Below are positions 3,755 to 44,768 of a stretch of 64,000 bases of DNA, piece after piece. Below the pieces are notes generated by a model, which was not told where the DNA came from, ran no database searches, and saw only the letters and a list, made by a program, of their open reading frames with translations. The stretch is taken from positions 16,369 to 80,368 of the forward strand of contig NZ_QAXS01000007.1 in NCBI RefSeq assembly GCF_003053565.1, written 5' to 3'. Both the position numbers and the translations under genes were made by a program. Within the stretch, counting starts at the first letter, position 1. Each line of letters opens with the position of its first letter. The stretch comes from Halanaerobium saccharolyticum. Lineage in GTDB: Bacteria; Bacillota; Halanaerobiia; Halanaerobiales; Halanaerobiaceae.

Positions 3755-3761
3755 TATTTAG

Positions 3762-3885
3762 ACAAGAAAATAACCTTACCGAAGACAGCAGGGGCGCAAT
3801 GCTTAAATTTCCTGCCGAGGGCAACTTTCTGCAAATTTAATTTTTGCATTTATACCTCCTGACTGTCTACAGGAGGTTTTTTCAT
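3762..3885 (+). promoter_or_regulatory. L10 (rplJ) ribosomal protein leader
   Basis: The conserved core of the L10 leader is readable: ACCGAAGACAGCAGG (about 3779-3793) and CCTGCCGAGG (about 3811-3820). The family binds L10(L12)4 and represses rplJL. At the 3' end ACCTCCTG (3854-3861) pairs with CAGGAGGT (3870-3877) followed by T's, a terminator-like hairpin. This suggests transcription attenuation as part of the feedback. The first half is known family behaviour; the attenuation step is inferred. Confidence 0.85.
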
Positions 3886-3932
3886 TTTAGATAAGATTTA
3901 TTGTTAAGCTCATATTTTGAGGGGGTGAAAAT

Positions 3933-36123: not shown

Positions 36124-36146
36124 TATTTATTTTTCATTTTATTACA

Positions 36147-36172
36147 GGCAGAGCTCAGGCTCTGCTTTTTTC
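36147..36172 (+). terminator. Terminator after rpsI
   Basis: GCAGAGC (36148-36154), loop TCAG, GCTCTGC (36159-36165), followed by a T-rich run. It begins the gene-free stretch that also holds the foldback element. Confidence 0.93.
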
Positions 36173-36200
36173 TTTTTTTCTAATCTTAGTTTTAGTTAAT

Positions 36201-36419
36201 TATTTTAAAGCTGAGCAACAAAATGTCGATCCAGAAAAAAATTATTACAATAACTAAGACTCATAAAAGAACTTAGTACAGCTGCCTGAGCAAAGAAACC
36301 TCCTGTTTCTGGCTCAGCTCAGAGCGTCCGTGCTCTTCGTCTGCCCTAAGTTCTTTTATTCATCAAGTTATAATAAAATAATTTTTTAGTCACTCATTTT
36401 GATGCTCAGCTTTAAAATA
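36201..36419 (+). repeat. 219-bp foldback element with branched tip
   Basis: Outer arms TATTTTAAAGCTGAGCA (36201-36217) and its exact complement (36403-36419) form a 17-bp stem. It continues inward as CAAAATG/CATTTTG, an 11-bp A/T stem (36236-36246 with 36377-36387), ATAAC/GTTAT, and a perfect 14-bp stem ATAAAAGAACTTAG (36263-36276) with 36346-36359. The tip holds two hairpins: CTGAGC-AA-AGAAAC/GTTTCT-G-GCTCAG (36286-36317) and AGAGC/GCTCT (36321-36336). No reading frame is evident. It may be a miniature inverted-repeat element or a structured RNA; I do not recognise the family. Confidence 0.8.
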
Positions 36420-36655
36420 AAATATTCAATAGATTAGAAAAAAGAAAAAGCAGGCCTTTGGGGATTAATCAAGTTATAATTAAGCGAATTTCATAATACG
36501 CTTAATTTAGTTTAATTCAAAAAAATATTGTCTGCGAATCATAAAAATAAGCCTTTTAACTTGAATTTGTAGATTTTAATGATTTACCATAGATTTACTG
36601 CTAAATTTAGACGCACTTAGCTTGGGTATCTTAAAATCTTGCTTTAAAATGCTTT

Positions 36656-37891
36656 TTAAGCAGCTAAAGTCTGATTTTGAAGCTTGATCTTTTCGGCTGC
36701 GATTCTTGCAGCTATCAAACTGATTGAACTTAATAGCAAATGAGTTTTGACTTTTTTGGCTCCCATTACAGTTAAGTTCTCTAAATTTAGATGCTCTTTT
36801 AGTCTGGAAAAAGTTCTCTCAACACTGGTTCTCTTGTTGTAGATCCTTCTCCAGGTTCTAGAGTCTCTATGTGGTGTTGATATATATCTGGGGTTCTCTT
36901 TTGGTCTAGTTTTAGTTACCTGACCGTAGTTGCTGTCAGAACACCATTTAGTTCCATGAATACAATCAACTTTACCACATACATGTGGGCATCTAAATTT
37001 GTTGACTCCTTTGTAATGACCCCAGTAATACATTTTGTGGCCTCCACTGCAGACTGGTGTTCCTTTAAAATCATAGAATCCAGCTGGTGGCTGTTTAGCA
37101 TTACGCTTGTTAATTGGAATAATAGCCTGAGACTCCTGCTCAAAGAGAATATGTTCATAGATATCAGTGTAATCATAGCCTGAATCCATAGTCCAGTATT
37201 TGGGTTTAGTTAAATCTCTTTCAGCTAAAAAGTCATTAACCTTTTCAACTAGGGGTATTGCCTGAGTTTTATCTGCATGATTGGCTGGAGTTAAAGTTAA
37301 AGCAATCGGTAATTCTGAGTTAGTTTCAACTGCAGCATGTATCTTCCAGCCAAACCAGGTTATCTGATTTTTATGAGAGTCAAATTTAGTACCCCAATCA
37401 GGGGTAGAATTATTTTCTTTATCTATCTTTGACCTTGGTTTAGCTCGTTCATAAGCTTCCAGTTTTGAAGCATCAACAGCCATTGTCTCAGTGTCCAATA
37501 AGTTAAAAACAATACATTGATCCAAAAGATTATTCATCAGTATTTCCAGTTCATCAGTCTCAGATAATTTGCTGTAATATCGGCTGAAAGTTGCTTCACT
37601 GGGCACCCTGCCAGTGGTAGAAAAACCACAGACATATCTGAGATATGGACTTCTATCAATTTTGCTTACTAAGTCTGCTCTGGTAGGAATCTTTTCAATC
37701 TGCTGGACCAGAAAAGCTCTTAAAATAGCTTCTGGATTATATCCAGTTGGTCCTTTATTAGACTTAGGCTTTATCTTTTCAACAACAGGTTTAAGATCAA
37801 TAGGATCTAAAATACAAATTAATTTGTCAGTTTCCGATAAATTAAGTAATTCTTCAAAGGGAAAGAGACACTCTTGTCGAATATTATTAAT
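36656..37891 (-). CDS. IS transposase, DDE type, probable ATT start
   Basis: The frame is open from the TGA at 37898-37900 down to the stop at 36656, which gives 411 aa when started at the first ATT (37889-37891). The N-terminal domain contains GYNPEAILRAFLVQQIEKIP and GRVPSEATFSRYYSKL, typical of IS1182/IS5-like transposases. Candidate catalytic residues are Asp in MAVDASKLEAY, Asp in WTMDSGYDY and Glu in SVERTFSRLK. No ATG, GTG or TTG occurs in the first 95 codons; the GTG at 37604-37606 would remove the whole N-terminal domain. ATT at 37891 lies 6 nt after AGAAGGTGA, making it the best start. The C-terminus appears intact. Confidence 0.8.
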   Translation of the reverse strand: MNNIRQECLFPFEELLNLSETDKLICILDPIDLKPVVEKIKPKSNKGPTGYNPEAILRAFLVQQIEKIPTRADLVSKIDRSPYLRYVCGFSTTGRVPSEATFSRYYSKLSETDELEILMNNLLDQCIVFNLLDTETMAVDASKLEAYERAKPRSKIDKENNSTPDWGTKFDSHKNQITWFGWKIHAAVETNSELPIALTLTPANHADKTQAIPLVEKVNDFLAERDLTKPKYWTMDSGYDYTDIYEHILFEQESQAIIPINKRNAKQPPAGFYDFKGTPVCSGGHKMYYWGHYKGVNKFRCPHVCGKVDCIHGTKWCSDSNYGQVTKTRPKENPRYISTPHRDSRTWRRIYNKRTSVERTFSRLKEHLNLENLTVMGAKKVKTHLLLSSISLIAARIAAEKIKLQNQTLAA

Positions 37892-44536: not shown

Positions 44537-44582
44537 AAGGAGGTGATTAAAAAAATTGAAGAGAAAAAGCGCCAGAACCTGA
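44537..44582 (+). other. Perfect Shine-Dalgarno and 8-codon frame overlapping the glmS ribozyme
   Basis: AAGGAGGTGAT (44537-44547) is complementary over 11 nt to the 16S rRNA 3' end. Eight bases later TTG (44556) opens a frame of eight codons ending TGA at 44580-44582. The predicted ribozyme cleavage site (between 44568 and 44569) cuts inside its fifth codon. Whether it is translated is unknown. Confidence 0.5.
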
Positions 44583-44712
44583 TTGGGACGGGATTTTAAT
44601 CAGGTGGACGAGGAAGAAGGTTATCGAATATTCGGCGGATGCCTTCAGGTAGTGGCTGTTCTGCCTCAATTTTATTTCTCAAAATCAGCGGGCAATTGCT
44701 GAGACAAAGGGA
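44566..44712 (+). ncRNA. glmS glucosamine-6-phosphate-activated ribozyme
   Basis: The sequence follows the glmS ribozyme closely. The segment AGCGCCAGAACC at the 5' end places the cleavage site just before GCGCC. P1 is CCTGATT/AATCAGG, then GGACGAGG, TATCGA, TTCGGCGGATGCC in the core, and the terminal ACAAAGGG. It lies directly upstream of glmS in the 5' untranslated region. The known mechanism is self-cleavage with GlcN6P as cofactor, leading to mRNA decay and end-product control. Confidence 0.95.
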
Positions 44713-44768
44713 ATAAATAACAGTTGACAGTTGAATATTAATAATAAAAACGGAGGTAAAGATAATAT

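Follow-up and report, generated by a model that had tools for sequence, protein, structure and literature searches.

A probable MITE-like family of foldbacks whose two-hairpin head is conserved and probably strand-specific

Bacterial MITEs usually show conservation at the ends, whereas the middle can vary freely. Described families include MITEAba12 (PMC6382973) and RUP, BOX, and Correia (PMC3049150), and the ends of such elements usually match a resident insertion sequence (IS) (PMC6382973, PMC3049150). The bcr1-bcr18 repeats of the Bacillus cereus group include families whose secondary structure is conserved, and transcription is known for about half of the copies; these repeats are confined to the B. 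cereus group and linked to a TTTAT motif, with up to 130 copies reported for bcr1 (PMC3446304, PMC6542083). Among the palindrome-associated PATE-like elements of IS200/IS605, one is known in Halanaerobium hydrogeniformans (PMC7290912). The foldback described here, from Halanaerobium saccharolyticum, has features of each of these groups and belongs to a family of its own.

The foldback lies within a 64,000-nucleotide stretch (the window) of a draft genome (G000; 3.2 Mb in 94 contigs), between rpsI with its terminator and an IS that carries a DDE_Tnp_1 transposase frame, so that its proposed location next to an IS is correct (Table 1). The branched structure at 36201-36419 put forward in the original prediction is real, with perfect 17-bp and 14-bp stems, an AT-rich middle stem between them, and two tip hairpins; none of 200 shuffles of the 219 nt equals the native fold, which has energies of -75.9 kcal/mol (z-score, -12.4) on the plus strand and -87.9 kcal/mol (z-score, -9.9) on the minus strand. 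Weaker inverted repeats run outward to about 36168-36449 (36168-36186/36431-36449), which makes the foldback somewhat larger than the predicted 219 nt. It contains no reading frame of 25 aa or more, as had been noted, and the sole frame overlapping it (45 aa) enters from rpsI. The ends of this copy are uncertain, and no target duplication is recognizable at them.

Table 1. Features of the foldback and its immediate surroundings, in window coordinates
Feature	Coordinates	Strand	Basis or remark
Whole foldback element, approximate ends	36195..36429	- (minus taken as sense)	Stems and folding; ends by analogy with the sharply bounded copies of G038 and G039
Outer stem, left arm, perfect 17 bp	36201..36217	.	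Partner 36403-36419
Outer stem, right arm	36403..36419	.	Partner 36201-36217
Conserved structured core, 122 positions	36250..36371	-	Model R1: 86.4 bits, E 7.7e-21
Inner stem arm, perfect 14 bp	36263..36276	.	Partner 36346-36359
Inner stem, partner arm	36346..36359	.	Partner 36263-36276
Head hairpin H2, CTGAGC/GCTCAG stacked on AGAAAC/GTTTCT	36286..36317	-	Minus-strand loop with closing pair is CAGGAGG
Head hairpin H1, AGAGC/GCTCT	about 36319..36338	-	Minus-strand loop with closing pair is CACGGACG; tandem G.A at base
rpsI intrinsic terminator, directly before element	36146..36167	+	Context; outside element
Neighboring IS transposase frame, DDE_Tnp_1	36656..37606	-	Later insertion; outside element

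By DNA search, the host genome has further, weaker copies, and relatives have orthologous ones. A covariance model (R1) covering the 122-nt core, built from six members with the window copy left out, has the minus-strand copy as its only match in the window (Table 1), and it matches 17 of the 61 genomes searched (host counted), with 8 core copies in the host, 11 in G007, 9 in G008, 10 in G038, and 28 in G039; counts from the large scans, in which part of the candidates were scored, are lower bounds. R1 also matches two distant genomes of the same phylum (G109 and G147) and four places in a Fervidicella genome. Genome-wide pattern matches in Stenotrophomonas, Ruminococcus, Lentzea, and Nocardioides do not pass the model, and we attribute them to chance. 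Searches of plasmids, phages, and viral contigs returned only Lawsonia plasmid matches, which cover 20% of the AT-rich query, and a single viral pattern match that fails the covariance model. Rfam 15 gives nothing credible for the element at gathering or relaxed thresholds, and the element does not reach the gathering threshold. Two known families elsewhere in the window do score above it, a glmS ribozyme/riboswitch (44557-44727, plus strand) and a ribosomal protein L10 leader (3761-3891, plus strand). The family is apparently undescribed; we found no earlier description in the open literature, which leaves most subscription journals outside and is not proof of absence.

That the foldback arose as a chance inverted repeat, or derives from the neighboring IS, can be set aside almost completely. 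The adjoining IS is what would suggest the latter, but its end (AAGCGAATTTCATAAT) does not match the ends of the element, and it is absent beside the orthologous foldback in G003 and G008, being specific to G000 among the genomes read; the IS is thus a later neighbor, and the earlier statement that the foldback is not its derivative is upheld. Chance, which had been named as the outcome if no second copy, no conservation, and no transcript were found, is refuted by second copies and by a family present in many genomes, and no shuffle folds as well.

The anatomy and the statistics of the family demonstrate that it is mobile, and the high-copy genome G039 (complete, 3.56 Mb) illustrates this. 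Copies in G038 and G039 have sharp boundaries and inverted ends, and the G039 terminal repeat ACTGCAAAAAGCTAATTTT, with up to 3 mismatches allowed, has 577 forward and 583 reverse occurrences, compared with 0 and 1 for the reversed control, giving about 580 element copies, or roughly 3% of the genome as estimated from copy number times length. A 400-kb sample contains 85 paired elements, in which region R1 finds 57 cores, but because the sample was picked around known matches, the genome-wide number rests on the terminal repeat count. The commonest size is 208-209 bp between inner marks, or about 221 bp when the outer 6 bp at either side are counted. Exact, AT-rich duplications flank 39 of the 85 copies (6 bp at 26 and 7 bp at 13), whereas with shuffled partners 6-bp duplications average only 1.2 (maximum, 5) and 7-bp duplications 0.4 (maximum, 3); among full-length copies, 25 of 44 have an exact 6- or 7-bp duplication. 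Targets are similar to ATTAAT or ATWNNAT. When the flanks are joined across the insertion, a frame of at least 150 aa is present in only 3 of 72 cases, versus 265 of 400 random points, showing that the insertions are intergenic, and copies are scattered on both strands. The original prediction had stated that many copies with target duplications would mean a mobile element, and the 8 host copies, the 17 carrier genomes, and the duplications in G039 answer in that sense.

Not all G039 copies are complete or independent. Shortened forms (about 98-124 and 171-182 bp in the sample L157-L176) keep the same ends and mostly have different deletion points, although five share a head that lacks H2, which indicates that H2 may be dispensable for spread. 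At L125 (G039:C1:1960000-1975000), tandem Rhs-like C-terminal cassettes have a foldback copy between them; these copies travel with the repeated cassettes and are not independent insertions, and they seem to have multiplied along with them. In Frackibacter, two element copies (L122, 1405-1722, and L123, 1667-1817) contain foreign inserts of the same sequence (GCTACAAGCACTCCGTATTGAAACAAAACGTACAAGAACAG...), which in L122 is present inside H1 too; these are possibly a second small repeat family nested in the foldback family.

The ends differ by lineage, with GATTAGAACACAAAAAGGTC in G038, GRTTAWACTGCAAAAAGC in G039, TTGATTCTGGTGCAAAAAGTC in G147, and yet another in G109, while the interior remains recognizable throughout. 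No autonomous element or transposase with matching ends is present in the 400-kb G039 sample, and none adjoins the DDE_Tnp_1 loci of G039 and G147, this being the one transposase family searched; DDE_Tnp_1 matches are absent from G038. The abundant IS of G039 is also rejected as a parent, as its ends do not match those of the element.

The rpsI-Memo spacer could be read in 11 of 12 genomes of the genus and is found in empty, complete, and damaged states, which shows that the window element is old and common to part of the genus. G002 and G004 have an empty 90-bp spacer, and there is no foldback in G009 and G011; G000, G003, and G008 have a complete element, G006 a head-deleted remnant, G007 half an element, and G005 a short, different palindromic stretch. 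In G001 (L203), an insertion beginning GTGTGCTCCGTAAATTATTC lies directly after the rpsI terminator, where relatives carry the foldback, and it resembles the 5' portion of a group II intron. Comparing the G000 and G008 elements, 11 pairs have changed on both sides and 3 on one side and are still paired, and 11 are broken. A second copy, at eda, is retained in five species (L056, L060, L070, L071, and L026) and is the only copy found in G001 and G005. Its core is 94% identical between G000 and G005 and 74% identical between G000 and G007, against 83% and 91% identity, respectively, of the eda genes. Both sites thus have two allele groups at odds with gene divergence, and simple vertical decay does not explain them; whole-element replacement or conversion may account for part of the observed changes, and at eda whole-element replacement, conversion, and repeated insertion are possible readings.

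The fold is conserved beyond what controls give. Nine members aligned without structural guidance share 37 consensus pairs, of which 20 show compensatory double changes, and in a model-fitted alignment 45 of 47 pairs have changed on both sides. Over 74 distinct rows, 90.7% of cells pair compared with 65.5% after shuffling, and the covariation score is 0.598 compared with 0.064 to 0.105 for slid controls; this alignment is fitted to the model, and the unfitted nine-member alignment gives the same picture. This covariation does not distinguish RNA from single-stranded DNA (ssDNA). In 68 distinct copies, the tandem G.A of the main stem is GA/GA in 54, the base of H1 is GA/GA in 31 and two Watson-Crick pairs in 36 (together 67 of 68, so that exchange is almost only for Watson-Crick pairs), and the tandem G.A of H2 is GA/GA in 19 and otherwise mostly Watson-Crick; the loops CAGGANG (H2) and CANGANG (H1) are conserved in most copies. 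A kink-turn reading of the stem motif is rejected, as stem pairs continue on both sides and there is no 3-nt bulge. On the complement the G.A motifs become tandem U.C or T.C mismatches, which points to selection acting on one single-stranded fold, that of the window's minus strand. The proposal of a functional head is supported by covariation and by loop sequences kept across the class and beyond, its actual role being a matter of inference.

A fold of this kind could be a structured noncoding RNA serving the host, read from the minus strand and multiplied by duplication inside genomes, whose head binds a protein or ligand. Strong covariation, loop conservation, the better folding of the G.A strand in all nine members tested, and the persistence of the eda copy in five species, as sole copy in two of them, are what such an RNA would show, but we consider it improbable. 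Inverted ends with target duplications, about 580 copies, and intergenic scatter on both strands are features of a mobile element, no neighboring gene is consistent, and the element at the rpsI site has lost its head in G006 and half its length in G007. RNA families usually have more wobble pairs than are seen here. G.U makes up only 96 of 2,845 standard pairs, and A.C mismatches (59) are not much rarer; within G039 copies A.C changes (60) and G.U changes (48) are about equally common, such that inserted copies drift and the changes following insertion look neutral. Neutral drift and the damaged copies at the window site in two species fit a selfish element better than a host RNA gene, and the simplest reading is that selection operates at the level of mobility and not at a single locus. 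As to whether the foldback is a novel structured RNA or a miniature transposable element, the alternatives originally offered, the mobile one is supported by the copies, inverted ends, duplications, intergenic location, and presence or absence between species, and from the RNA one the conserved covarying fold is retained, whereas the host-serving gene at this locus is not supported.

Covariation could also be a mutational artifact, in which template switching between the palindrome arms maintains their complementarity in the absence of selection and the interior is simply inherited. Between G000 and G008 the arms are still complementary, even in outer stems without sequence conservation, one G039 copy (L075) shows Watson-Crick pairs in place of its stem G.A, and wobble pairs are few, all as expected from such a process. 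However, template switching would erase mismatches, yet GA/GA persists in the main stem of most copies; H1 and H2 are local hairpins with fixed loop sequences kept across classes, and the target duplications are left unaccounted for. We regard this explanation as hardly probable.

A third possibility is suggested by the loop sequences, with GGA in the two loops titrating the regulator CsrA, so that the element would be an RNA or ssDNA decoy. CsrA is encoded by 15 of 16 carriers tested, but also by most non-carriers, and one carrier (G014) shows none; the presence of CsrA does not separate carriers from non-carriers. GGA is present in H2, but many H1 loops lack it (CACGATG and similar), and a CsrA decoy is very improbable.

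The window foldback is very probably a copy of a mobile element. More specifically, it is likely an old copy of a non-autonomous foldback MITE-like family of about 220-235 bp, with a role in mobility left as the most likely one for its head; that the two-hairpin head serves mobility is, as a claim in itself, a tentative one. An ancestor of part of the genus would have acquired the window copy downstream of the rpsI terminator, and a transposase acting in trans would move the family. Because the G.A motifs suit one strand only, we infer that a folded single strand is the recognized form; this could be an RNA transcript of the element or ssDNA arising in transposition or replication, and it would be recognized by a protein needed for mobility. 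The structure would be kept among spreading copies, and individual inserted copies would decay. A stronger version, in which spread depends on the element's own folded strand, with the head (ssDNA or RNA) recruiting the mobility protein as the true recognition signal and the ends free to change, is conceivable though unlikely. It becomes directly testable whether the movement of a miniature element requires its own folded strand, and with the covariance model the family can readily be found and masked in other genomes.

Comparison with known systems places the family closest to the bacterial MITEs. MITEAba12 (PMC6382973) and RUP, BOX, and Correia (PMC3049150) are likewise small, AT-rich, noncoding, tightly folded, intergenic, and present in many copies, with inverted ends and target duplications. 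MITEs are about 50-600 bp, AT-rich, and without a transposase gene, and the element, at about 220-235 bp, is the same; it also has inverted repeats, dispersed and mostly intergenic copies, and target duplications, the latter in G039 and not at the window copy. The share of full-length copies with a duplication is 57% here (25/44) and 40% for MITEAba12 (PMC6382973). The bcr1-bcr18 repeats (PMC3446304, PMC6542083) are also MITE-like and intergenic, but their sequence and head appear to differ. PATE-like elements are short and non-autonomous, and a folded single strand matters to them, but IS200/IS605 has no inverted ends and no target duplications (PMC7290912), and the presence of both here rules out membership. 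The structured noncoding RNA families of Rfam 15 share covarying stems, conserved loops, and tandem G.A motifs, whereas the foldback matches none of them and is mobile. In contrast to the usual MITE, no resident IS with its ends was found (in one transposase family and a sample of one genome), its ends vary by lineage, and its interior is conserved across classes in a strand-specific fold. It represents a MITE-like foldback family, apparently new, whose two-hairpin head is conserved and strand-specific; the usual MITE pattern of conservation is reversed in it and the fold is kept by covariation together with one-strand motifs.
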